From IMG/VR virus record IMGVR_UViG_3300020442_001512, positions 1 to 25,652 of that record: 25,652 nucleotides of DNA. The stretch is one strand, 5' to 3'. Below the pieces are notes generated by a model, which was given only the letters and a program-made list of their open reading frames with translations, did no database searches and had not been told where the DNA came from. Within the stretch, counting starts at the first letter, position 1; each line of letters begins with the position of its first letter. This document shows, one piece after another, positions 4,543 through 22,188 of the stretch. Position numbers and translations under genes: made by a program. Origin of the DNA: a virus.

Positions 4543-5571
4543 TTAATCTGCCTTTGGCTTTACTGCCTTACTCATGTTTGTTTTTTCTGCTTTAGTTGTT
4601 CCATCTGTATTGATAGTTATATTATCGTTATTAACAAATGATGTAAGTAATTTATTGGCGGCACTCCAAACTTTTTTGTTATCATCACTGATACGTTTCC
4701 AAGTACTTCCAACTTTCTTAAACAATCTATTAGGTTCAAAGTCTGTTCTCAAGTAATATTCTCCATCATTTGCATCAAGTGGCATACTGTCACCACTACC
4801 AACAATACTAATTCCATTAGGCGGTTCTCCATCACCAGGGAAATATACACCTGGTTTATCTTCTGATTCAGGATCAACATACAAATGTCCACCTTCGTAA
4901 TATCCAGCATCATACGAAACTTCTGAATTTGCTAACTCAACAACTTTGTCGCTGATAGAAATTTCTGTTTTGTATGTGCTAAGAATATTTCTTAAGTCAT
5001 CTGTTTGCTCACCAGTACCAAGTATATCTCTGTATTCTGGACTGTCTGTGATGTTTTTAAGTTTTACTCTCCACAAGTGAGGCCACCATCTAGGATCGTA
5101 ACCTTCTGCTGGTCTGCCAGCATCACTTACTACAAAGTATCTATTTACAGCATCACCGCCACCTAATAGTAAATCATCTCGCAAGTGAGGTAATTCTATA
5201 ACATCACCTGCCATTAAACGTCTACCAAGCAAGTTTGCACATGTATTCATGTGGAATGTCATAAACAATGCATCATTGTTTACAAATAAACCAAACTGTG
5301 TTAAATCAAAATCAGGATCTGCTATGGTATATGCACCACGTAATTCATATATGTCTTTGTCATACTTTCTATCTCTATTTTCAAGAAATACAACGTCTTG
5401 TATATACAAATCACCTGAACCAATACTTTGGGTGGTGTCATCTTGGTATGTACCTATGTATTTGTGTACATAGACTCCAGTACCACCTGCATTGATTGAC
5501 TCTGCCGTAACTCTATCTATAAAGTCATAATCGTTGGTTTTGTTCTTGTTCCATAAACTTAATCTTGGCAT
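4543..5571 (-). CDS. 14: Neck protein gp14
   Basis: This is a T4 gp14-like neck (connector) protein that closes the filled head and receives the tail. The N-terminal VTAESINAGG..VYV stretch corresponds to the AESIQ.RG..CYYV region of T4 gp14. The following LENRDRKYD, DLTQFGLFVNND and RRLMAGDVIELPHLRDD segments have the pattern I associate with gp14 of marine T4-like phages. It is 342 aa against 256 in T4; the surplus is a C-terminal part with a GEYYLRTDFE..RLF..VG..W module at about residues 264-292 and a Lys/Thr-rich tail. A GATAAATA late motif lies 7 nt upstream of the ATG, with no Shine-Dalgarno, so a leader of only about 2 nt is predicted. It opens the leftward gp14-gp15-Nudix-207 aa operon. 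Confidence 0.8.
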   Translation of the reverse strand: MPRLSLWNKNKTNDYDFIDRVTAESINAGGTGVYVHKYIGTYQDDTTQSIGSGDLYIQDVVFLENRDRKYDKDIYELRGAYTIADPDFDLTQFGLFVNNDALFMTFHMNTCANLLGRRLMAGDVIELPHLRDDLLLGGGDAVNRYFVVSDAGRPAEGYDPRWWPHLWRVKLKNITDSPEYRDILGTGEQTDDLRNILSTYKTEISISDKVVELANSEVSYDAGYYEGGHLYVDPESEDKPGVYFPGDGEPPNGISIVGSGDSMPLDANDGEYYLRTDFEPNRLFKKVGSTWKRISDDNKKVWSAANKLLTSFVNNDNITINTDGTTKAEKTNMSKAVKPKAD

Positions 5572-5600: not shown

Positions 5601-5629
5601 TTGACAAAATCCTTGATAATTATTATAAT
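5601..5629 (+). promoter_or_regulatory. Consensus sigma70-type promoter for tRNAs and redox operon
   Basis: TTGACA at 5601-5606 and TATAAT at 5624-5629 are separated by 17 nt, a perfect bacterial housekeeping promoter. It faces away from the gp14 late promoter and lies just upstream of the tRNA-Ser, so tRNAs and the genes behind them are probably transcribed early by unmodified host polymerase. Confidence 0.88.
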
Positions 5630-5637
5630 ATAATGTT

Positions 5638-5727
<90 letters not shown>

Positions 5728-5740: not shown

Positions 5741-5816
5741 GGGGCCGTAGCTCAGTTGGGAGAGCGTCTGGTTTGCATCCAGAAGGTCGCAGGTTCGACC
5801 CCTGTCGGCTCCACCA
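5741..5816 (+). tRNA. tRNA-Ala (UGC)
   Basis: This is a 76-nt cloverleaf with acceptor GGGGCCG/CGGCTCC including the G3:U70 wobble that marks tRNA-Ala for alanyl-tRNA synthetase, discriminator A and encoded CCA at 5814-5816. The anticodon stem TCTGG/CCAGA encloses TTTGCAT, giving anticodon TGC at 5774-5776. D and T arms are normal. It reads GCA and GCG and probably GCT. It sits 13 nt after tRNA-Ser. Confidence 0.97.
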
Positions 5817-5823
5817 TTTTATT

Positions 5824-6069
5824 ATGAAGAAAATAGACGATATAATTACACATGCCATCCTTCAAATATTATTAGAAGCGAGACGGCAAGGCAAAGACAT
5901 GTTAAGTTTCGAAGAAGTTATGGAACTGCTTGGCATGGATGATACTTCTCTGATGACAAAATTTGAAAAAGAATCTGTTTTAGTTCTCAATAAAGATATG
6001 TTAGACCAACTAGATGATCCTGAAATGGTTGAAGCAATGGTACAATCTTTACAGGAAACAAAACACTAA
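5824..6069 (+). CDS. Small unknown protein, 81 aa
   Basis: This short acidic, helical protein follows tRNA-Ala by 7 nt and overlaps the next start codon by one base (TAATG). I do not recognise it. The N-terminal half looks like a helix-turn-helix-like or coiled segment (LEARRQGKDMLSFEEVMELL), followed by a very acidic tail rich in D, E and M. The frame continues upstream through the tRNA, but the ATG at 5824 is the first start outside the tRNA gene. Its position as first protein of the redox operon suggests a regulator or accessory subunit, but this is inference only. Confidence 0.65.
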   Translation: MKKIDDIITHAILQILLEARRQGKDMLSFEEVMELLGMDDTSLMTKFEKESVLVLNKDMLDQLDDPEMVEAMVQSLQETKH

Positions 6070-6884
6070 TGTTACACAAAGATTGCTTTATAGATTTACC
6101 TAATATAGAATTACCTTATACTCATAAGGATATACTTTCAGATTTAGATTATGAAATTTTAGAAACAAATTTATCGCCTAAGCATAATACACAATCTAAA
6201 AATATTATATGGTTTGGGCAACAATCTCATATTAATACTAATATCAAAGCAAGAGAAGTATCCTTACTAGGTGTGATTTCTAATACAAAAATAACAGATG
6301 AGTTAAAACATTTTACTAACAAAGTATTTCATAAAGATATTATACAACATAACACTACTAGAGGAGGTAAAGTACTTACAGGAATAACATTAATTACATT
6401 TTCTGGAAATACCCCTTGGCACAGAGAAGGCTTTAATCCCGAATGGACAACGCCAGAATTTGAAGAAAAATTTCATACAGCACATCCTTTTAGAAGATTT
6501 AATTATGCTATAAATTTTCCTTTGTACACAAAGAAAGCAGACACCACAAAGGTAGAATTTGCAAGAATGAAAAGTCCTATAGGAGCAATCGAACAAAATC
6601 TTCACGCAAAATTACTAAACAATAATTCTTTTGAAGAACTTAATAAGGGTATAAAAATATCTCCTGCTTTGGATCAAATAACAGATGAAAAGAAATGGCA
6701 AAACCATATTGAAGTATTAGATACAAAACACAAGTATGACTGTCCTTATGTAATTAATCTGTCGTCATACCATAAAGTACATACAACTGACGCCACAAGA
6801 TTAAGTCTTAGGCTCATGGGATCGCATAAATATTGCTGGAGAGACATAGAGACAATATACACTAATGGTCAATTAATAAATTAA
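6069..6884 (+). CDS. Putative 2OG-Fe(II)-oxygenase-like protein (paralogue 1)
   Basis: This is probably a double-stranded beta-helix protein of the 2-oxoglutarate/Fe(II) oxygenase type. The visible marks are H118-R-E120 (PWHREG) as the proximal metal pair, a following R.FNYAINF strand, and distal H235 (YHKV) with R244 nine residues later, where 2OG enzymes carry the carboxylate-binding Arg. The N-terminus CF..LPNIE.P....DI matches the two tandem paralogues at 12948 and 13923, which share the whole pattern. HxE in place of HxD is less common but known. It is translationally coupled to the 81-aa gene and lies 3 nt before the ferredoxin reductase gene. Substrate unknown; a metal-free cupin-like structural role is the alternative. 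Confidence 0.6.
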   Translation: MLHKDCFIDLPNIELPYTHKDILSDLDYEILETNLSPKHNTQSKNIIWFGQQSHINTNIKAREVSLLGVISNTKITDELKHFTNKVFHKDIIQHNTTRGGKVLTGITLITFSGNTPWHREGFNPEWTTPEFEEKFHTAHPFRRFNYAINFPLYTKKADTTKVEFARMKSPIGAIEQNLHAKLLNNNSFEELNKGIKISPALDQITDEKKWQNHIEVLDTKHKYDCPYVINLSSYHKVHTTDATRLSLRLMGSHKYCWRDIETIYTNGQLIN

Positions 6885-6887
6885 TAA

Positions 6888-7604
6888 ATGTATAAAGAAA
6901 AAGTAACTTGGGTCCATCATTGGACTGATAAAACATTTAGTTTCAAAACCACACGCAACCAAAGTTTTAGATTTGTAAATGGAGAGTTTGCAATGATAGG
7001 TTTAATTGTAGATGACAAGCCTTTGTTAAGAGCATACAGTATTGCAAGTGCAAATTATGAAGACCATTTAGAGTTCCTCAGTATAAAGGTGCCCGACGGA
7101 CCTCTTACAAGTCGTCTACAGCATTTAAAAGTTGGAGACGAAGTTGTAGTAATGCCTAAGTGTACAGGCACTTTAACGATTGATAATTTAACAAAAGCAA
7201 AAAATTTGTTTTTACTTTCAACAGGAACAGGTATTGCTCCATTTATGAGTATTATTCGAGACCCTGCAACATACGACAAGTTTGAAAACGTAATTTTAGT
7301 GCATACAACTAGAACACATGCAGAGCATACTTACACAGATACAATAAATCGTATGTGTGAAAGTTTTCCTTTAACTTATTATGACACATGTACACAAGAA
7401 GATTATAAACGCAAAGGCAGGTTTTGGAATCACATAAATAGTTTTACTGAAAACGGATTTAATAAAGACACGGATCGTATAATGGTATGCGGTGGTCCTG
7501 ATATGAATTATGAATGCCGAGATTATTTTGAAAATTTAGGATTCATAGAAGGCAATTTAGGAGAGCCTAATGATTTTGTGTTAGAACGAGCATTTGTAGA
7601 TTGA
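6888..7604 (+). CDS. fpr: Ferredoxin/flavodoxin-NADP+ reductase
   Basis: This FAD enzyme exchanges electrons between NADPH and ferredoxin or flavodoxin in the cytoplasm. The FAD site is R48-A-Y-S51 followed by a GPLTSRL pyrophosphate-binding loop at 71-77. The NADP site is STGTGIAPFMS at 111-121 and VCGGPDM at 200-206. The C-terminus ERAFVD fits the bacterial Pseudomonas/Rhodobacter type, whose tail covers the flavin, rather than the plant type. At 238 aa it is slightly shorter than the usual ~255, but no domain is missing. The gene overlaps the radical SAM gene by 4 nt. An Fpr-flavodoxin or ferredoxin chain is the normal reductant for radical SAM clusters, so it may power the next enzyme. 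No ferredoxin or flavodoxin gene is present in this window. Confidence 0.92.
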   Translation: MYKEKVTWVHHWTDKTFSFKTTRNQSFRFVNGEFAMIGLIVDDKPLLRAYSIASANYEDHLEFLSIKVPDGPLTSRLQHLKVGDEVVVMPKCTGTLTIDNLTKAKNLFLLSTGTGIAPFMSIIRDPATYDKFENVILVHTTRTHAEHTYTDTINRMCESFPLTYYDTCTQEDYKRKGRFWNHINSFTENGFNKDTDRIMVCGGPDMNYECRDYFENLGFIEGNLGEPNDFVLERAFVD

Positions 7605-9367
7605 GTATTAACGTATTAGATATAAAGCAAGATTATAAAAAGACACCAGTTGAGGTTCTTTTGTTTGCTGACGATTTAATTCCAAAGCACCATTGGGAAA
7701 TATCTCTTACACATGAACATTTTGCAAACGTTGGCTTCAAACAAATTGAAAAAAGTGAAGTAGAAGACTACTTTAAAAACATGCTAAAACGTTTCCCCCC
7801 TGAAAATAGACTACACAGGTATTTAGATGATACAGCATATTATGTAAATCATAAAACTGCCAGACCATATGGAGTTTATAAAATTGCCCATGAAATTAGA
7901 AAGGCTGGATACACAGTTCAAGTTGTTGCTCATCCGCATTTCTTAACAGAAGAAGACGTTGAACTTATTATAGATAAGTTTGTAGGCGAAGAAACACTAG
8001 TAGTAGGTTCTTCGGGAACATTTCACAGTGGTTATAATCCTTATGCTTTTATAGATTCTATGTTTTTTCCAGTTGCAAGACAAAGACAAATTAGAAAAAT
8101 GATAGACAAACGTAATCCGAATACTAAAATGATTTACGGAGGATCATCAATAGGTGAAGACTATCTCCGAGATCCTAATTATGATAGTCCTATGTTAGAT
8201 GTTGATACATTGTTTGTTGGTTATGGTGATGTAACTATGATAGAATATTTAAATGACCTAAAGGAAGGACAGCAATGGCCCACTTATACAGATAGAGGCA
8301 GTAGATTAGATATTCAAAACAGCACAATGAGTTATACAGACGAGGATTGTGTTCAATGGGGAGACCAATTAGGATTAGAAACAGCCAGAGGTTGTATTTT
8401 TAAATGTGCTTTTTGTAATTTTGGATTAATAGGAAAAGAAAAAGGCACATATGAAAGAGGTACCAATTTAATTGTAGATGAATTAAGACGTAATTGGGAA
8501 GAACACGGTGTTTTTAGATACTGGGTAATGGACGATACGTTCAATGACACAAATTACAAGTTAGAAGCAGTAGCAGAAGCAAAAGAAAAGAGTGGTGTTC
8601 CTTTAGACCTTACAGTATTTCTAAGATTAGACCTACAACACCGACTTAACCAAACAGAATTGGTAAAATCTTGTGGAATAAAATCTATTTACTATGGAAT
8701 AGAAACATTAAATCCTGATAGTGCTATAGATATTGGTAAAGGTTGGCATCCTGATGAGCAAATGGCATTTATAAGAGAACTAAAAGAGAAACATTACCAT
8801 GATAATATCAAAACATTCACAACTTTTATATGGGGTTTGCCATCTGATTCAAAACAAAGTGTTATGGAAGACTATGATAAGTTATTAGACTTCGAATATA
8901 ATAAATTTGACCATGTTTATATGAATGCTTTAATGATGAGAGACCCAGAATCATATAAATTACAAACATTAGAAACAGATGCACCCACAGGAAGTGCAAT
9001 AGACACAGATCCTGGCAAGTATGGTTACACTTTTGGTGGTTTTGATGCGGCCCGAGCCGCAGATCCAGGCGTAAATGTATTAAGAGCATGGAGAAACAAG
9101 CATGGATTACGTTATGGTACTGTGAATAAACTGGCAGACAAGTTTAACAGAGAATATAATCGTAAAAAAGGTTGGCAAGAAGACTATAGTGCTTCTCCAC
9201 CACACAGAATATATGAAGATGCAATACCAAATGATAATTTTGACAAATACCTTCAAAAATATTGGGACGATGTGATGTCTGTACAAGGACATACCAGGTA
9301 TGACTCAGCAGAATTTTTTGATTCCAATACTCAATCATCTATAAAATTGAAAGCGATAACTAATTAG
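7601..9367 (+). CDS. Radical SAM enzyme, B12-binding-like N-terminal domain
   Basis: This radical S-adenosylmethionine enzyme carries the [4Fe-4S]-binding motif CX3CX2C at C265, C269 and C272 (RGCIFKCAFC). A TIM-barrel follows, with YWVMDDTFN, DLTVFLRLD and the YYGIETL strand typical of B12-binding radical SAM proteins. Residues about 85-235 look like the Rossmann-type domain seen in that subgroup (PYGVYKIAHEIRKAGY, then IYGGSSIGED), but the DxHxxG cobalamin motif is not seen. The start is TTG at 7601, overlapping the reductase stop as TTGA; the first in-frame ATG is some 60 residues inside the conserved region. It lies between Fpr and the FabZ-like gene with almost no spacing. The reaction cannot be predicted; methyl transfer or radical modification of a lipid or peptide are options. 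Confidence 0.9.
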   Translation: MSINVLDIKQDYKKTPVEVLLFADDLIPKHHWEISLTHEHFANVGFKQIEKSEVEDYFKNMLKRFPPENRLHRYLDDTAYYVNHKTARPYGVYKIAHEIRKAGYTVQVVAHPHFLTEEDVELIIDKFVGEETLVVGSSGTFHSGYNPYAFIDSMFFPVARQRQIRKMIDKRNPNTKMIYGGSSIGEDYLRDPNYDSPMLDVDTLFVGYGDVTMIEYLNDLKEGQQWPTYTDRGSRLDIQNSTMSYTDEDCVQWGDQLGLETARGCIFKCAFCNFGLIGKEKGTYERGTNLIVDELRRNWEEHGVFRYWVMDDTFNDTNYKLEAVAEAKEKSGVPLDLTVFLRLDLQHRLNQTELVKSCGIKSIYYGIETLNPDSAIDIGKGWHPDEQMAFIRELKEKHYHDNIKTFTTFIWGLPSDSKQSVMEDYDKLLDFEYNKFDHVYMNALMMRDPESYKLQTLETDAPTGSAIDTDPGKYGYTFGGFDAARAADPGVNVLRAWRNKHGLRYGTVNKLADKFNREYNRKKGWQEDYSASPPHRIYEDAIPNDNFDKYLQKYWDDVMSVQGHTRYDSAEFFDSNTQSSIKLKAITN

Positions 9368-9368
9368 T

Positions 9369-9791
9369 ATGAAACTACCACATACTTACCCAATACTTCT
9401 GGTTGATACTTATAAAATCATAGACAATACAAAAATTACAGCAACATTCACAGTTCCTGAGGACCATCCTGTATTAGAAGGGCATTTCCCACATGTAAAA
9501 ATATGGCCTGGAGTATACTTAATTGAAGGAATGAATCAAACAGCAGGTATACATGCTTTAGATATGGCAGAAAAACAATTTGAAACATCTGATTTAGAAA
9601 ACATGGTTACTTTTGTAACAAGTGTAGACAAAGTTAAATTCAGACAACCAGTGTTTCCAGGTGATGTATTAACATATTCTGCAGTTTTAGAAAAGCAAAA
9701 ACGTGACCATGTGTTTTATGAATGTGGTGTTTCCAATCACTTACAAGCAGTCGCACAGGCAAGTATAGGGTTAACCGCAAAAAAACTTTAA
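9369..9791 (+). CDS. FabZ/FabA-like 3-hydroxyacyl-ACP dehydratase (hot-dog fold)
   Basis: This resembles the beta-hydroxyacyl-ACP dehydratases that remove water from 3-hydroxyacyl chains in fatty-acid synthesis. The opening LPHTYPILLVD matches the FabZ start, and the active site is present: H39 in EGHFP and E53 in LIEGMNQTAG, 14 residues apart as in FabZ. Length (140 aa) is normal. Conserved FabZ strands V..VDKVKFRQPVFPGD are present at about residues 78-95. It starts 1 nt after the radical SAM stop and closes the operon; the next promoter begins 9 nt later. A hot-dog thioesterase is the alternative, but the complete His/Glu pair favours dehydratase. I am not aware that such a gene is usual in T4-like phages. 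Confidence 0.85.
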   Translation: MKLPHTYPILLVDTYKIIDNTKITATFTVPEDHPVLEGHFPHVKIWPGVYLIEGMNQTAGIHALDMAEKQFETSDLENMVTFVTSVDKVKFRQPVFPGDVLTYSAVLEKQKRDHVFYECGVSNHLQAVAQASIGLTAKKL

Positions 9792-9800
9792 AATTTACAA

Positions 9801-9828
9801 TTGACATAAGTAAAAATAATGCTATAAT
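9801..9828 (+). promoter_or_regulatory. Consensus sigma70-type promoter for lipoprotein gene
   Basis: TTGACA at 9801-9806 and TATAAT at 9823-9828 are 16 nt apart, with a TG extended -10 element at 9820-9821. It drives the lipoprotein gene with a leader of about 100 nt (roughly 9835-9937). A weak CAGTG/CACTG pairing near 9837-9864 is the only structure I see in the leader. Confidence 0.88.
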
Positions 9829-9937: not shown

Positions 9938-10858
9938 ATGAAAATGGTAAAAACGTTAGGCCTAACGTTATTCGCTATCATTTTTGCCACTGGCTGTGCT
10001 GGTAATCAGGCGGCTAGGGATTATTATTTGGCAATACAAGCCGCGGCACAAGAAAATGCCAAGTCAAGTACAGCCAGATATAATGCATTGGCACAATTAG
10101 CTCAATCTGGAGATCCCGGAGCGGCAACTGCCGCAACAATGGCAATTGCCTTGTCTCAGGATCAAGTCATTCAACCGCAATATATTGAATCATCGGCTCT
10201 TAAATGGGCAGGTGTACTTGCGGCACCAGTGACTACACTTGGTCTTGGAGTAGTTCAAGCCGGTGTTGCCAAGAACGCATCTAACAATGCGGCCCAGGTA
10301 CAGATGGCAAGTTTTGCTAGTAATGAAGCGATCCAATTAGGACAGCAGAATATGGTGTCCACGTTAGGAGGTCAATGGGCAACTGGAGCCAATGCCTCAA
10401 GTCAAGCATTAGTTGATTTAGGTATTGCTGGTTTTGGTGCTCTAAATAATGCAGGCGACCAAACAGTTGCATTAGGTGTAGCAGGTTTCACTGCTAATGA
10501 GAATATTGCAACAGTTGGCATGAACAATCTCAATGAGATGGGCCAATATGGCATGACCACAGTTAGTGCAACAGGTATTGCTGGCATGCAAAACATCACC
10601 GATGTTAGTAAGTGGGGCATGGAAGGTATTTGGCTCACTGCTGAAAACGGCATGGATGGAATGGAGGCACTTGGTCTAGCAGGTATGACAAATCTTACTA
10701 CACTAGGCACAACTGGTTTAGGTTTAGTTGACTCGCAAGGCACTAATTTTGCAACAATTATTAGTAACATGCAAGAAACTATTAATCAGTTAGGCAGTGA
10801 TTTAGCAGATCCAATTACTTGTAGTCCAAATGCGGACGGCTTGTTTGTTTGCCAATAA
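9938..10858 (+). CDS. Gly/Ala-rich outer-membrane-type lipoprotein
   Basis: Residues 1-20 are a lipoprotein signal: basic start, hydrophobic core and lipobox ATGC with lipidated Cys20. Ala at +2 (not Asp) points to the outer membrane. Residues about 25-130 are Ala/Gln-rich and helical; about 140-260 hold irregular repeats of the form LG(I/V/L)AG(F/M) at least four times. Two cysteines near the end (TCSPNADGLFVC) could form a disulfide outside the cytoplasm. A strong GAGGAG site lies 7-8 nt before the ATG. The gene is a private transcription unit between promoter 9801 and terminator 10871. I do not recognise the family. A phage lipoprotein with a host-type promoter could block receptors for superinfecting phages, but this is inference; a lysis or envelope role is also possible. 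Confidence 0.85.
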   Translation: MKMVKTLGLTLFAIIFATGCAGNQAARDYYLAIQAAAQENAKSSTARYNALAQLAQSGDPGAATAATMAIALSQDQVIQPQYIESSALKWAGVLAAPVTTLGLGVVQAGVAKNASNNAAQVQMASFASNEAIQLGQQNMVSTLGGQWATGANASSQALVDLGIAGFGALNNAGDQTVALGVAGFTANENIATVGMNNLNEMGQYGMTTVSATGIAGMQNITDVSKWGMEGIWLTAENGMDGMEALGLAGMTNLTTLGTTGLGLVDSQGTNFATIISNMQETINQLGSDLADPITCSPNADGLFVCQ

Positions 10859-10921: not shown

Positions 10922-10950
10922 TTGACAGCAAAAAAGTTTGAAGTTATAAT
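10922..10950 (+). promoter_or_regulatory. Consensus sigma70-type promoter for 389-aa gene
   Basis: TTGACA at 10922-10927 and TATAAT at 10945-10950 with a 17-nt spacer, a perfect match, 36 nt upstream of the ATG at 10987. It lies directly after the terminator at 10871, so this is a fresh early-type transcription unit. Confidence 0.9.
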
Positions 10951-10986: not shown

Positions 10987-12156
10987 ATGGCAAGAAAGAA
11001 AACCAAAACTCGAAACATTTATGTAACTAAGGAACCTGATTGGAAAAAGTTCATGGGTCTCACTGATCCTGAAGAACAAGAGAAGGCTTTTAGGTCAGTT
11101 GATTATTTTGTGCATTCTGAAATTTCAACAAAAGATGCAGTAGCCAAATATCGTAAATGGGTTAAAGAAGCAAGTGGCTGGGCACCAGAAGAAATTAAAG
11201 TTATTTTAAAAAACCCTGATTGGAGATTTAGCAGTAGTGCCAAGTATGCTTGGTGTTGGGACAAGTTAGGATACATGCCAGAATGTTTTGCAAAGTTTTA
11301 TGATAAGAAAAAAGATGACCTTATAACAACAGGCAAAGAAATCGTAGAAGAACAACAAGAAAAGAAGAAAGAAGCAAAACCAAAAATTTCTATTCAAGAA
11401 AGAATGCTAGACCAAATAACAGATTTGTGTGGTCAATGGGAAGACCTGATAGATAAATTTATTGAAACAGGAAAAATAAACATAAAAAGTTTTGATCCTG
11501 AAAAAGACATGAAAGTTTATGATGGTGGGGGTGTTATAAAACCTAACCATGCAAAATTAATTAAAGAAAACTTTACTGCTATACACGAAGAAGCAAAAGA
11601 AAGTTTGGCAGGCACATGCGACCAATTAAACGAAGCATACAATTTTATGAACAAAAAAATGAAACAGGATTATGTTGCATTTTTTGAGAAAATTATGAAT
11701 GCCTGCGATGCTTTAATCTTAACAGGTAAAGCAAATAGAAAACAACGCAAGCCAAGAGCAAGAAGTAAAGATGCTATTATTAAGAAAATGAAATTTCAAG
11801 TTAGTGATGGCTCATTAGGAATAGCATCTATATCGCCCACAGACGTCGTCTACGCCAATGAAGTATGGGTATACAATACAAAGACCCGTAAAGTAGGAGT
11901 TTACCACGCAAAGAACAAAGACCCACGCAACTTGCAACGTGCTGGTGCAGGTCTTATGGTTAAAGGAACAACATTCCAAGACTTTGATCCTGAGACAAGT
12001 GTACAAAAAACATTAAGAAAACCAGCAGAACAAATCAATAATTGGACTGGAAATGCAAAAACAAGATTTGCAAAAGCATTTGATGAAGTCAAAACCACAC
12101 CAACAAAACTTACCGGAAGATTGAACGATACTACTATCATACTTAAAGCCTTTTAA
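10987..12156 (+). CDS. Unknown 389-aa protein, probably early
   Basis: I cannot assign a function. The protein is strongly basic at its start (MARKKTKTRN), Lys/Glu-rich in the middle with a likely coiled coil at about residues 115-250, has a basic patch RKQRKPRARSKD near 252-263, and ends in a compact beta-rich domain (VWVYNTKTRKVGVYHAK onward) finishing in LTGRLNDTTIILKAF. The basic patches suggest binding to nucleic acid. A start with an AGGA a few bases upstream fits well. It has its own consensus promoter at 10922 and lies directly before late gene 13, so it is probably expressed early although its neighbour is late. Confidence 0.8.
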   Translation: MARKKTKTRNIYVTKEPDWKKFMGLTDPEEQEKAFRSVDYFVHSEISTKDAVAKYRKWVKEASGWAPEEIKVILKNPDWRFSSSAKYAWCWDKLGYMPECFAKFYDKKKDDLITTGKEIVEEQQEKKKEAKPKISIQERMLDQITDLCGQWEDLIDKFIETGKINIKSFDPEKDMKVYDGGGVIKPNHAKLIKENFTAIHEEAKESLAGTCDQLNEAYNFMNKKMKQDYVAFFEKIMNACDALILTGKANRKQRKPRARSKDAIIKKMKFQVSDGSLGIASISPTDVVYANEVWVYNTKTRKVGVYHAKNKDPRNLQRAGAGLMVKGTTFQDFDPETSVQKTLRKPAEQINNWTGNAKTRFAKAFDEVKTTPTKLTGRLNDTTIILKAF

Positions 12157-12167
12157 AGGTTAAAAGT

Positions 12168-12175
12168 GATAAATA
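12168..12175 (+). promoter_or_regulatory. T4-type late promoter motif for gp13
   Basis: GATAAATA ends exactly 5 nt before the ATG at 12181. With the T4 start-site distance of 6 nt, the mRNA would begin at the A of the start codon. The flanks match the gp14 site at 5579. Confidence 0.7.
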
Positions 12176-12180
12176 GTAGT

Positions 12181-12948
12181 ATGGCAACTAAAATAGACCA
12201 GATTGGGTATAATACACGAGACGAGTTAATCAAAGAACTTGGGTTACGTCTTGCTGATGGTATGGTTGATGTTGAATTAGACAGAGACCATTACGACATT
12301 GCTATCAATAAAGCAATAGCCAAATACCGTCAATTAAGTACAGGGTCTGTTGAAGAAGCAGTAATTTTTATACAGACACAGGCAGGTGTAACAAAATACA
12401 CATTGCCAACAGAAGTAATAGACGTTAAAAGATTATACAGACGAGGTATAGGAACCAACAGTGGTGGCGGTACTAACTTTGATCCTTTTGATGTTGCATT
12501 CAACAATATGTATATGCTACAAGCAGGACAAATAGGTGGACTTGCTGTATTTGATGCATTTGCACAATACAAAGAAACTATCGGTCGTGTGTTTGGTAGC
12601 GAATACAACTTTAATTTTAATAGAAACAGTAAAGAATTAACAATATTAAGAAATGTAAACCATGCTGAAGATATAGCAGTGGGTGTACATAATTTCGTAC
12701 CCGAGAGTGTATTACTAAAAGATGTTTATGCTAGTGACTGGTTAGCCGCTTATGCCTTAGCACAAAGTAAAATGATGTTAGGAGAAGCAAGAAGCAAATT
12801 TCCAGGAGGATTACCAGGACCTGGTGGAGCAACAACATTGAATGGAGATGCACTTAAAAGTGAAGCACTTACCGAAATAGAGCAATTAATTGCAGGACTC
12901 CATAATATGGAAGAAGGTAATGCACCACTTGGTTTTGTAATAGGTTAA
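12181..12948 (+). CDS. 13: Neck protein gp13
   Basis: This is the T4 gp13-like neck protein that forms the ring under the portal with gp14. The N-terminal region (ELIKELGLRLADGMVDVELDRDHYDIAI..AI..Y) corresponds to the T4 opening with LKD.ILRRLGAP..NVELT..Q.YD.I..AL, followed by a beta segment and IDVKRLYR. Length is 255 aa against 309 in T4. The frame extends to a GTG at 12166, but that codon lies in the late-promoter motif, so ATG 12181 is preferred. The stop overlaps the start of the next gene (TAATG). In T4, 13, 14 and 15 are neighbours; here gp13 is on the other strand from gp14 and about 6.6 kb away. Confidence 0.85.
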   Translation: MATKIDQIGYNTRDELIKELGLRLADGMVDVELDRDHYDIAINKAIAKYRQLSTGSVEEAVIFIQTQAGVTKYTLPTEVIDVKRLYRRGIGTNSGGGTNFDPFDVAFNNMYMLQAGQIGGLAVFDAFAQYKETIGRVFGSEYNFNFNRNSKELTILRNVNHAEDIAVGVHNFVPESVLLKDVYASDWLAAYALAQSKMMLGEARSKFPGGLPGPGGATTLNGDALKSEALTEIEQLIAGLHNMEEGNAPLGFVIG

Positions 12949-13913
12949 TGTTAAATTGTTTTTGTGAATTTCCAAAATTAGAATCACCTTTTAAACCAGA
13001 AGATATTTTTACTGACGAAGATTGGAAGTTGTTCAGCGAAGATTATGAAACTGGAAAAGTAAATTTGCATTCCGGTTCTATCAAGTGGTTTGACGCCAAC
13101 GATGAAATGGCAAAGGCTAAAGGTGTTCAACGTCCTGAATTTTCTGGTGTAGGATATCCTACAAATAAAAAATTTATGAAACTGCTCAGAGAGTATGTAG
13201 GAGACACATTACCGGATGATTTTATTAAACAGATGTGGAAAACACCAATTGGGCAAAAATTATATCCTTGTACATTGTTAGCATGGGGAAGAGATTCTGA
13301 TTGGCACACTGAAGGAGTTGTTTACGATGTTCAAAAAAATCCCAAGATAGCATCTAAAAGATACAGTACTGTAATAAATTTTAGATTGCTTGGAGATGCA
13401 GATAATTCAAAAATTAAATTTGCAGACCCTAGTCCAGTATTACACAACAAAATTAAAGAACTATCTGAAATGTTTGTAAGCAACGATGTACATGAAAATT
13501 ATTCAGCACAACTACAATCAATATCACACTCAATGTCAAACAATGATGATATGGATTCCAGTGGAGCAAAAAGAGTTGTTTCTTATATAGGAGACACAGA
13601 CAAAGAATCAGCCAGTGAAGTTGTAGAAAGGCAAAGAACTCTTAATTATAAAGCCGTAGAGTTTGTAGAAGAAGATGGTTTAGAAATTAGTAGTCCCAAT
13701 GATATAATAACAAGCCAAAGATGGGAAGATGAATTGAATCCTATCACTGTTAAAGAAGGATTTAATAGCCCATTTATGTTGAACTTGGCAAGATGGCACA
13801 AAGTTGTTGTAGGAGATGCAGGCACACGAGTAACTTTAAGATTAATGGCAGATAGAAATGTTCCATTTAGTCATTGGGAAGAAATGGTTGACAACGGAAC
13901 CTTTTTTAAATAA
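12948..13913 (+). CDS. Putative 2OG-Fe(II)-oxygenase-like protein (paralogue 2)
   Basis: This shows the same pattern as the proteins at 6069 and 13923. H120-T-E122 (DWHTEG) forms the proximal metal site, RYSTVINFRL the following strand, and H284 (ARWHKV) with R294 ten residues later the distal His and co-substrate Arg. The N-terminus CFCEFPKLE.PF..EDI is nearly the same as in the tandem neighbour. A Ser/Asp-rich insert of about 40 residues in the middle (about 175-230) is missing in the neighbour. It is translationally coupled to gp13 by a 1-nt overlap, so it is probably expressed late, possibly acting on virion or host proteins. Enzyme activity is inferred from motif layout only. Confidence 0.6.
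   Translation: MLNCFCEFPKLESPFKPEDIFTDEDWKLFSEDYETGKVNLHSGSIKWFDANDEMAKAKGVQRPEFSGVGYPTNKKFMKLLREYVGDTLPDDFIKQMWKTPIGQKLYPCTLLAWGRDSDWHTEGVVYDVQKNPKIASKRYSTVINFRLLGDADNSKIKFADPSPVLHNKIKELSEMFVSNDVHENYSAQLQSISHSMSNNDDMDSSGAKRVVSYIGDTDKESASEVVERQRTLNYKAVEFVEEDGLEISSPNDIITSQRWEDELNPITVKEGFNSPFMLNLARWHKVVVGDAGTRVTLRLMADRNVPFSHWEEMVDNGTFFK
13861..13904 (+). repeat. Direct repeat, copy 1, 3' end of tandem paralogues
   Basis: A run of 34 identical bases (13861-13894), one mismatch and then about 9 more identical bases recur at 14707-14750. It encodes the shared C-terminus FSHWEEMVDNGTF. Synonymous positions are far better conserved here than in the rest of the two genes. Confidence 0.85.
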
Positions 13914-13922
13914 AATAAGAAA

Positions 13923-14759
13923 ATGAATAATTGTTTTTGCGAATTACCTAATTTAGAAAATCCTTTTACTGTAGAAGATATACTATGTGAAGAGGATTTA
14001 GATTTAATTTACAATTACAACAAAGAATCAAGTTTAGGTGCTGATAAAGTACAGTGGCACGACTCAACATCTGATTTTTATGCAGGTAAACAATATAAAA
14101 ATAATTTTACTGGTGTTGGATATATCACAGATAAAAGTATTATGCGTACAATGAATGAATTTGTAAGGGATAATTTTCCAGATTCATTTATTAAAAATAT
14201 GTGGAGAAGTGGACTAGGACATAAAATTTTTCCTTGCACATTATTAGTATGGAACGATCCATCGGATTGGCATTGCGAAGGATTACAATATCCAGCACAC
14301 CATGATCCAATCATCAGTGAACAACGTTTTAGTACTGTATGTAATTTTAGATTAATTGGTGATCCTGTAAATTCTAGAATTAGATTTGCAGAAGGCGATG
14401 AAAAATTACAAAAAGCAACAGAAGAAATAGTAACAGATTATATTAATAAAGATGTAAGTGGTATACAGTCGAAAGATATTTTTAGCAATATAAAGCCAAG
14501 GTCATATACAAAAGACAAAAGTCTAATGACAGGTAGCCCAAATGATTATTTTTGTAATGCAGAAGTTTGGGAACCACATTTGAACGAAATAGCAGTTAAA
14601 GAAGGATTCAATAATCCATTTCTTTTAAACTTAGCAAGATGGCACAAAGTGGAAATAGAAGATAATACACCTAGAGTTACTTTGAGACTAATGGCTGAAA
14701 AAGATATTCCATTTAGTCATTGGGAAGAAATGGTTGACAATGGAACCTTTTTAAAGTAA
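13923..14759 (+). CDS. Putative 2OG-Fe(II)-oxygenase-like protein (paralogue 3)
   Basis: This is the tandem copy of the gene at 12948, 9 nt downstream of it. H117-C-E119 (DWHCEG), RFSTVCNFRL, H241 (ARWHKV) and R251 repeat the metal- and co-substrate-site layout. The C-terminal 14 residues are the same as in copy 2 except one, while the middle is shorter (278 aa in all). Such a pair, with a more distant third copy at 6069, indicates duplication and divergence inside the phage lineage. A possible role is hydroxylation of a protein or small molecule. If the glutamates are not metal ligands, the family could be a non-catalytic relative. Confidence 0.6.
   Translation: MNNCFCELPNLENPFTVEDILCEEDLDLIYNYNKESSLGADKVQWHDSTSDFYAGKQYKNNFTGVGYITDKSIMRTMNEFVRDNFPDSFIKNMWRSGLGHKIFPCTLLVWNDPSDWHCEGLQYPAHHDPIISEQRFSTVCNFRLIGDPVNSRIRFAEGDEKLQKATEEIVTDYINKDVSGIQSKDIFSNIKPRSYTKDKSLMTGSPNDYFCNAEVWEPHLNEIAVKEGFNNPFLLNLARWHKVEIEDNTPRVTLRLMAEKDIPFSHWEEMVDNGTFLK
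14707..14750 (+). repeat. Direct repeat, copy 2
   Basis: This is the second copy of the repeat at 13861-13904, spaced 846 bases on, in the same frame at the end of the second tandem paralogue. Confidence 0.85.
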
Positions 14760-21114: not shown

Positions 21115-22188
21115 ATGAAAATAAAATATACAAAAACTCCAAGGAACGTAATCGAGTTTGACGAAGATGTTCCGGCTGATTTAGATCCTACAGACGTTGT
21201 AGAGATTTTTCAAACACCTTTGACTGGTTCATTTAATTGGGACTACACAGTTCAAGACAATAGAATTAAAAAGTTATATGAATTAGGCAAACAATTAAAT
21301 TGGAATGTAGAAGTTGATGTTGATTGGACTCCAAAGTTTACAGGAATTGGAGACGAAGAGTTTGAATTTGAGAATACTCAGTGGGATAACCATACAACAT
21401 TTAAAACATTTGATAAACAAACACGTTTAGAGTTCTTTAAAGACTTAAACAGTTGGGCAACAAGTCAATTTTTACATGGAGAACAAGGAGCATTATTGGT
21501 AGCATCGCAATTAGCCAGTTGTGCGCCGACCTATAACGCAAAACTTTACGCCGCCAGCCAAACATTCGACGAGGCAAGGCATGTAGAAGCATTTAACAAG
21601 TATTTGCAACAAAGATTAAAACGCAGTTGGCCCATTGGTCGAGCATTAAAAGGTCTACTGGACAAAATTTTAACAGATCCTAGATGGGATTTGAAGTTTA
21701 TTGGTATGCAAGTTGTAATTGAAGGCTTGGCACTTGCCGCCTTTAATGCCGCCAAAGAAGGCACTAATGATCCTGTGTACAAACAAATGTTAGAATACAT
21801 TATTAGAGACGAAGCAAGACATGTTACGTTTGGTATTAACTATCTTAAAGACTATGTTACAACATTAAGTGAAGAAGATGTTATGGACAGAGCACAATTT
21901 GCCTTAGAAGCCTGTACTGTAAGTAGGAATAGACTACGAGCATACGATGTATGGGAAAAATATGGCATGGATTTAGAATATACTGACGAATATCAAAAAG
22001 AAAACATATTCCAAACACAATTTCAAGATGTATTGTTTAGTAGAATAATGCCAAACCTTAAAAAGATTGGATTACTACATGATGACCTTGTGCCTGAGTA
22101 TGAAAAATTAGGTGTAATGGGTTATGCAGATGGTGACAGTGATTATGAAACAAGTTGGGAAGAGCTCAGTAAACCTTTGAAAGCATAA
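21115..22188 (+). CDS. Ferritin-like diiron protein (R2-like oxidase/oxygenase)
   Basis: This long-chain ferritin-like protein has a four-helix bundle and complete diiron ligands: E123 (LHGEQ), E153 and H156 (DEARH), E203 (VVIEGLA) and E233 and H236 (DEARH), the E-x30-ExxH / E-x~30-ExxH layout of ribonucleotide reductase R2 and diiron oxygenases. The LTDPRWDLKFIGMQV and RDEARHVTFG segments place it with bacterial ferritin-like oxidoreductases of unknown substrate, not with ferritin storage proteins. The tyrosyl-radical context of R2 is not evident. N-terminal residues 1-90 are an unrecognised extension. It lies among virion genes, between gp4 and gp16. Such enzymes need an electron donor; the phage Fpr at 6888 could supply it. 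N- or C-oxygenation or desaturation are possible reactions. Confidence 0.85.
   Translation: MKIKYTKTPRNVIEFDEDVPADLDPTDVVEIFQTPLTGSFNWDYTVQDNRIKKLYELGKQLNWNVEVDVDWTPKFTGIGDEEFEFENTQWDNHTTFKTFDKQTRLEFFKDLNSWATSQFLHGEQGALLVASQLASCAPTYNAKLYAASQTFDEARHVEAFNKYLQQRLKRSWPIGRALKGLLDKILTDPRWDLKFIGMQVVIEGLALAAFNAAKEGTNDPVYKQMLEYIIRDEARHVTFGINYLKDYVTTLSEEDVMDRAQFALEACTVSRNRLRAYDVWEKYGMDLEYTDEYQKENIFQTQFQDVLFSRIMPNLKKIGLLHDDLVPEYEKLGVMGYADGDSDYETSWEELSKPLKA

Follow-up and report, generated by a model that had tools for sequence, protein, structure and literature searches.

Accounts of phage metabolic genes have mostly dealt with isolated genes taken from host pathways. The window analysed here, a virus record of 25,652 bp (IMG/VR IMGVR_UViG_3300020442_001512), carries four enzyme genes in one run at 5824-9791, and the question raised by this locus is whether they work together. 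After a small open reading frame (ORF) of 81 amino acids (5824..6069), the run encodes on the + strand a 271-residue protein with a predicted Fe(II)/2-oxoglutarate (2OG) oxygenase fold (OG1; 6069..6884), a 238-residue FAD/NADPH ferredoxin (flavodoxin) reductase of the bacterial FPR type (FNR; 6888..7604), a 588-residue radical S-adenosylmethionine (SAM) protein with a CxxxCxxC motif and a TTG start (rSAM; 7601..9367), and a 140-residue FabZ-like hotdog dehydratase (9369..9791). A sequence-only reading had proposed one small early pathway for modifying a lipid, acyl group or peptide. Comparison with related phages showed that the four enzymes are separable parts with no fixed single pathway: FNR and FabZ are a fixed pair in their slot, and none to three rSAM genes are exchangeable inserts between them. 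We tentatively read the locus as a modular island of enzymes that a marine jumbo myovirus lineage, distantly related to PA5oct, carries among its tail and neck genes and that combines FNR-rSAM redox chemistry, acyl dehydration by FabZ and tailoring. The sheath protein of the window is 43.8% identical to that of jumbo phage PA5oct.

Slot composition in related phages

The enzyme slot is bordered by a virion gene (4543-5571) on its 5' side and a neck gene (12166-12948) on its 3' side. When IMG/VR was scanned for rSAM, FabZ and two flanking genes, 199 loci were recovered, two of the scans contributing their best 80 of 244 and best 80 of 222. Loci that shared at least three identical proteins were joined, which left 84 groups, the window included; L001, itself a slice of the window, was dropped. 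Most IMG/VR records are fragments, and the absence of a gene weighs little. FNR and FabZ were both present in all 21 groups of marine relatives with a complete slot from virion gene to neck gene, and were either adjacent or parted only by rSAM. One or two rSAM copies were found in 19 of these slots, and none in two (L081 and L178). Two records outside the 21 complete slots (G003 and G014), which have similar layouts, carry three consecutive rSAM genes.

Paralogues of OG1, one to five in number, follow the neck gene and sometimes also precede FNR. The window has two of them, OG2 (12948..13913, + strand) and OG3 (13923..14759, + strand), with the same set of invariant residues as OG1. The interval from the neck gene to a deoxynucleoside monophosphate (dNMP) kinase gene was closed in 52 groups, 36 with one to five OG copies and 16 without. 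Where FNR or FabZ was also in view, 21 of 22 groups had OG genes after the neck gene; the exception (L037) has a methyltransferase-like gene of 272 amino acids in their place. That label was given by eye, with no search or match behind it, as were the labels spanin-like, nonribosomal peptide synthetase condensation, HemW-like, asparagine-synthetase-like, collagen-like, curlin-like, QueE-like and, for small proteins, hydroxylase-like. Close orthologues of all four enzymes are under purifying selection: in five pairs of related records, the ratio of nonsynonymous to synonymous substitution (dN/dS) was 0.03-0.12 for FNR, 0.03-0.14 for FabZ, 0.07-0.25 for rSAM and 0.07-0.40 for OG, leaving aside one nonorthologous best match of rSAM (0.44), one of OG (0.70) and a saturated pair for OG.

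It is rather unlikely, in our judgment, that the slot is simply a permissive site in which unrelated auxiliary genes share one promoter and owe their proximity to conserved tail/neck synteny, with no joint pathway. The whole region is syntenic, and because synteny of the structural region is conserved, the fact that four genes stay together is weak evidence of a common function. The sister clade L179-L200 fills the slot with an NAD-dependent epimerase, two small hydroxylase-like proteins (by eye) and sometimes a 617-residue rSAM with a B12-binding domain, and FNR, FabZ and OG-family oxygenases are absent from the stretches examined. The methyltransferase-like gene occupies the OG place in L156 as well as in L037, L178 has an isocitrate lyase in the slot, and FabZ stands apart from the others in L510, L517, L518 and L520. 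Against such a hotspot of unlinked genes are the unbroken association of FNR with FabZ in the 21 complete slots, the retention of OG in 21 of the 22 groups with a closed interval described above, and the 14 sister-clade groups that have no OG there and neither FNR nor FabZ, although the stretch is mostly short.

The alternative cassette at L199:3477-6513 and in its sister loci is conserved and includes a 353-residue protein without a Pfam match (8 loci), the two small hydroxylase-like proteins (10 loci) and the epimerase (13 loci). The phage isocitrate lyase of L178 (3964-5178; PF00463, 1e-92) lies in the FNR-FabZ slot. The FabZ-like gene of L510, L517 and L520 is located in a different phage region and has neighbours that, by eye, resemble QueE and glutaredoxin genes.

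Properties of the four enzymes

The reductase matched FAD_binding_6 (PF00970) and NAD_binding_1 (PF00175) above the Pfam cut-offs. The motifs R48-A-Y-S51 and T112-G-T-G-x-A-P118 are invariant in all 20 aligned phage rows (20 of 24 thinned sequences), with a mean column identity of 83%. The FNR profile scored 248-285 bits with solved bacterial FPRs (1a8p, 2qdx and 6rr3 at 262-285 bits) and aligned with the Azotobacter/Pseudomonas type along residues 2 to 238; the phage enzyme differs in being about 20 residues shorter and phage encoded. It fell below the equivalog cut-off of NF008178, the model of the Escherichia coli Fpr branch (123 bits versus 390). An FNR is reported from phage PhiMa05 (PMC8093824).

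The dehydratase scored 62.2 bits against PF07977 (cut-off, 23), and H39 and E53 were kept in 18 of 18 rows, 17 of them distinct; the first FabZ alignment held 14 of 15 thinned sequences. A thioesterase reading was rejected, since the profile fitted FabZ (2.7e-24) far better than the PaaI thioesterase (3.9e-4). The protein aligns along nearly its entire length with structures of bacterial FabZ (3-hydroxyacyl-acyl carrier protein [ACP] dehydratase) and has the catalytic His and Glu in common with it. It differs in its lineage-specific IWPGVYLIEGMNQ core, in being encoded by a phage next to FNR and in missing the NCBIfam equivalog cut-offs, for which reason it is named FabZ-like here. Its substrate is most likely an acyl-ACP, handled together with partner proteins of the phage or the host.

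The radical SAM protein scored 50.1 bits against PF04055 (cut-off, 29.5), and C265, C269 and C272 are kept in every one of the 21 aligned rows (20 of 22 thinned sequences plus L004, with L182 and L186 of the sister clade excluded). Its nearest curated model is NCBIfam TIGR04072, the lipid-biosynthesis B12-binding rSAM family, of which it reaches 70 bits against an equivalog cut-off of 360. TsrM, AprD4 and MgmA head the Foldseek list for the predicted fold, and by Z score MiaB and RimO rank first, with MiaB, RimO, AprD4, OxsB and MgmA at Z 16-18. The protein has the radical SAM core and a predicted overall fold in common with B12-type radical SAM enzymes (TsrM, AprD4, OxsB and MgmA). The B12-binding domain PF02310 had no match in the window rSAM at E 1. 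A role in nucleobase modification has no sequence support, the nearest models being B12-type natural-product or lipid enzymes, although MiaB and RimO nonetheless top the list by Z.

Bacterial relatives of rSAM were found at 44 loci in one genome scan, and the neighbourhoods of the five best, which are 28-32% identical, were inspected. Two rSAM genes of L220 are interleaved with a gene for an aspartyl/asparaginyl hydroxylase (PF05118, 49.7 bits) and one for a 238-residue protein without a Pfam match. A PP-binding protein is encoded immediately 5' of the relative in L221, and a TPP/POR-type oxidoreductase close to the one in L223. These few cases suggest that the bacterial relatives belong to biosynthetic clusters, with rSAM beside 2OG enzymes.

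OG1 had no above-chance match in Pfam, PHROG or NCBIfam, and none of 55 OG members matched a Pfam 2OG family at E 0.01. H118, E120, N149, H235 and R244 are invariant in all 55 rows at a mean identity of only 20% (55 of 57 thinned sequences; L040:11664-12851 and L014:2996-4078 were excluded for doubtful long starts). Nearly all top structural matches of the OG1 AlphaFold2 model (predicted local distance difference test [pLDDT] score, 92.9) are 2OG oxygenases with the double-stranded beta-helix fold, among them proline 3-hydroxylase, WelO5, BesD-type enzymes and lysyl and prolyl hydroxylases at Z 8-9.4; the best Foldseek E value was 2e-4, with low TM-scores (0.2-0.4; top row, 0.34). The model and the invariant residues support an Fe(II)/2OG-oxygenase fold with an HxE...H iron triad and an Arg for 2OG. 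The predicted structure matches do not pick a substrate. The usual iron motif of 2OG oxygenases is HxD. Cyanophages and marine T4-like phages also carry 2OG oxygenases, often in several copies, and the OG family has the superfamily fold and the multicopy habit in common with the reported cyanophage enzymes (PMC3037559, PMC9602691), but it has HxE and matches no Pfam 2OG family. The OG profile did not match the small 2OG-like proteins of L220 and L199.

Compared with the closest relative (L004), OG1 is 46% and OG2 41-43% identical to its best match, whereas OG3 and the other compared genes are 81-99% identical (small ORF, 73%), which suggests that individual copies were replaced or diverged rapidly.

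All four enzyme labels of the sequence-only reading stood up to these searches, as did its intact RAYS and STGTGIAP motifs, radical SAM cysteines and FabZ residues; the 2OG label is carried by the predicted fold and the invariant HxE...H...R.

Possible partner genes in large phage records

The largest relative (G001, 339,794 bp) carries OG, FNR and FabZ, without rSAM in the slot. It is of one species with G002, the two being 99.99-100% identical across two compared stretches. Elsewhere, G001 encodes an ACP whose DSL serine is present, a FabF-like ketoacyl synthase that keeps the Cys/His/His residues (TIGR03150, 243 bits versus a cut-off of 494), and three desaturase matches (PF00487), for which the nearest NCBIfam model is DesA, under its cut-off. 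It also has SUF iron-sulfur assembly genes (L369:10833-14293) for SufC, SufD, SufS and a SUF-associated protein, above Pfam cut-offs where tested, and a Grx4 (L367:3591-3896) above the NCBIfam cut-off. There are two more, weak, oxygenase copies and 11 rSAM matches, 8 of them above the cut-off and many in a tandem array; G002 has 2 rSAM matches. The array (L368:4503-16720) is radical SAM/SPASM-like, one member having been tested for SPASM, with a desaturase gene within it and a carbamoyltransferase gene after it.

The sequence-only reading took the acyl substrate from the dehydratase itself, and this is upheld by the grouping with FabZ rather than PaaI and by the synthase and ACP of G001. The synthase block recurs at 75-77% identity in nine other contigs, of which L373 and L375 look alike, and an ACP gene accompanies it in the three that exceed 100 kb, with the DSL motif seen in two (L438 and L440); one of the three also has two desaturases. 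A motif filter for the synthase passed 8 of 12 loci; the Cys region is present in 7 of the 8, two of which are one species, and the filter excluded L376, L378, L379 and L381. Several of these contigs share source metagenomes with FNR- or FabZ-bearing contigs.

Another large record (G021) has 12 radical SAM matches outside the slot, 9 of them above the cut-off, and lacks a ketoacyl synthase. Its ACP-like protein (L350:8628-8855; PF00550, 32.6 bits) reads GGDEFDIVD at the DSL serine site and is thus apparently unable to carry phosphopantetheine. The same record has CsgG (PF03783, 4e-48) beside curlin-like repeat proteins without a Pfam match (by eye; L349:10695-14551).

The genes of G001 raise the possibility that these phages simply boost host fatty acid elongation and desaturation, with FNR feeding ferredoxin-dependent desaturases and the rSAM and oxygenase genes being separate. 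We consider this unlikely. G001 does have all the components, including the three desaturases, and no slot rSAM; G035 has the synthase, ACP and two desaturases at 66-68% identity, and FNR-FabZ is the invariant core. There are also reported precedents, namely acpP-fabF-fabG in Roseobacter prophages (PMC8224337) and fabZ in a 1,000-m virome (PMC10653327). The prophage genes are likewise phage-borne fatty acid synthesis genes, but the set differs, and FabZ, FNR and rSAM are not named in the available text (PMC8224337). Desaturases, however, were found in just 2 of 22 records searched, both of one species and with most records being fragments, and in one of six contigs compared, whereas rSAM genes occupy 19 of 21 slots.

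Proposed function

In the modular island that we tentatively favour, FNR would draw electrons from NADPH and deliver them, by way of a ferredoxin or flavodoxin of the host, to the phage [4Fe-4S] radical SAM enzymes, whose clusters could be supplied by the phage SUF/Grx4 set. The FabZ-like enzyme would dehydrate a 3-hydroxyacyl thioester, most likely on an ACP, with a phage FabF-type ketoacyl synthase and ACP and host reductases as its partners. The rSAM and 2OG enzymes would do the tailoring, on targets that vary from phage to phage (an acyl chain, a carrier-bound amino acid, a peptide or some other metabolite), and as a net effect acyl products would be redirected or modified in the course of infection. 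The weakest step of this explanation is the connection of these rSAM and 2OG enzymes with an acyl substrate. FNR most likely feeds the rSAM enzymes, a redox logic already proposed from the sequence alone. It is favoured by rSAM genes beside FNR in 19 of 21 slots, by rSAM genes elsewhere in G001 and G021 and by the SUF/Grx4 set of G001; two 49-51-kb fragments with the G001 type of FabZ (G007 and G008) show no rSAM and speak against it.

Several observations weigh against this reading. The enzymes are separable: rSAM, OG, FNR and FabZ are each found without some of the others, and FabZ has no FNR, same-family rSAM or OG nearby in 4 of the 45 loci with enough upstream sequence (L510, L517, L518 and L520; the FabZ proteins of L517 and L518 are identical). 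G021 (250,519 bp) has a diverged FNR in another place, no FabZ and no OG-family oxygenase. When paralogues were counted in, the median dN/dS of all pairs came to 0.11 for FNR, 0.20 for FabZ, 0.54 for rSAM and 0.70 for OG; together with the low values for orthologues, this indicates that the function of the genes is maintained, with quicker divergence or replacement of rSAM and OG copies. The acyl part is physically supported only in G001 and G002: FabZ is linked to the synthase and ACP in this one species, which lacks the slot rSAM, and no contig was found with both the slot rSAM family and a ketoacyl synthase or ACP. G003 (109,675 bp) and G004 (82 kb), which are rSAM-bearing fragments, had no synthase, ACP or SUF match. 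The ACP, synthase and Suf proteins of G001 are under the NCBIfam cut-offs, as is the FabZ-like protein (99.3 bits versus 113 and 94.7 versus 155), and the rSAM model is of moderate confidence (pLDDT, 75). No phage ferredoxin (PF00111) was found in the 20 records searched, and two bacterial relatives of rSAM, L219 (a 3-kb contig) and L222, have no partner of the kind seen in the other three, judged by eye. Phage ACP may also have another role, since in Eneladusvirus jumbo phages an ACP, detected by mass spectrometry, is reported to be encoded near a spanin-like gene (PMC7760394). An ACP is likewise reported for an Alteromonas phage (PMC11705849).

These observations bear directly on the single four-gene pathway of the sequence-only reading. 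The pairing of FNR with FabZ held in every complete slot and that with rSAM in most, but joint presence and absence fails, given the two slots without rSAM, G021 and the four loci with FabZ alone; the scattering that was to count against the proposal is thus partly seen.

A bolder version of the island, which we regard as improbable, is that phage synthase, ACP and FabZ build or extend the chain of a dedicated carrier-bound product, with exchangeable rSAM and 2OG enzymes functionalising its C-H bonds and FNR and SUF/Grx4 charging the clusters. If true, the phages would encode a pathway akin to those for natural products, one that diversifies from phage to phage.

Modification of virion or host proteins by rSAM and the 2OG enzymes (in the manner of prolyl or lysyl hydroxylases and of MgmA or RimO), with FNR as reductant and FabZ incidental, is very improbable: the structural matches of OG1 and rSAM listed above, the position of OG genes among virion genes and a large G001 protein with collagen-like repeats (by eye) agree with it, but such fold similarity does not tell the substrate, FabZ is left without explanation, and we know of no modified virion protein.

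Expression signals and other genes of the window

The genes of the run, called by a simple ORF rule, are packed as the sequence-only reading had described: the junctions from the small ORF through OG1, FNR and rSAM to FabZ are a 1-nt overlap, a 3-nt gap, a 4-nt overlap and a 1-nt gap. The small ORF, which had no family match in Pfam and PHROG searches, has homologues 5' of FNR in some relatives. The described promoter and tRNAs are also in place: a perfect sigma70-type promoter, TTGACA-N17-TATAAT (5601..5629, + strand), is followed by tRNA-Ser (GCT; 5638..5727, + strand) and tRNA-Ala (TGC; 5741..5816, + strand), which were found in 21 and 23, respectively, of 24 FNR-bearing loci scanned.

Early expression found no support. 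A second perfect promoter (9801..9828, + strand) lies immediately 3' of the run and precedes the gene at 9938-10858, and a third perfect box (10922-10950) lies 5' of the gene at 10987-12156. The window has these three perfect boxes (spacer, 15-19) against 0.13 expected by shuffling, and zero T4-type late boxes (TATAAATA) against 3.8 expected. This is a T4-like structural region with three perfect sigma70 boxes yet no TATAAATA.

At 8-1999, the window encodes a phage CHASE2 domain fused to an adenylate/guanylate cyclase, which is kept beside tail genes in relatives. A diiron ferritin-like protein (21115-22188) has weak matches to AurF, aldehyde decarbonylase and R2lox and 117 IMG/VR relatives, the best 80 of which are 64-99% identical. 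It was rejected as a partner of FNR, which was present in only G021 among 11 diiron-bearing records tested; G028, among the ten without FNR, is a fragment from a phage closely related to the window.

Distribution and significance

Among INPHARED isolate phages, rSAM and OG1 had no match. FNR and FabZ matches were all below 60%, some in records resembling bacterial DNA, and the 28 matches of the ketoacyl synthase were also all below 60%. In the open-licence literature searched, neither a jumbo phage with radical SAM and FabZ together nor a viral fabZ with ferredoxin-NADP reductase as an auxiliary metabolic gene was found, and PMC9123017 and PMC13282480 held nothing useful on these enzymes. Within that literature, the enzyme set is undescribed so far.

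The enzyme set conserved in these widespread marine giant-type phages probably alters molecules of the infected cell, acyl compounds or others. A jumbo-phage lineage keeps a reductase, a dehydratase and variable rSAM and 2OG enzymes, and its largest record adds a synthase, an ACP, desaturases and iron-sulfur assembly. The lineage offers a testable case that viruses can run their own acyl and radical chemistry in ocean bacteria.

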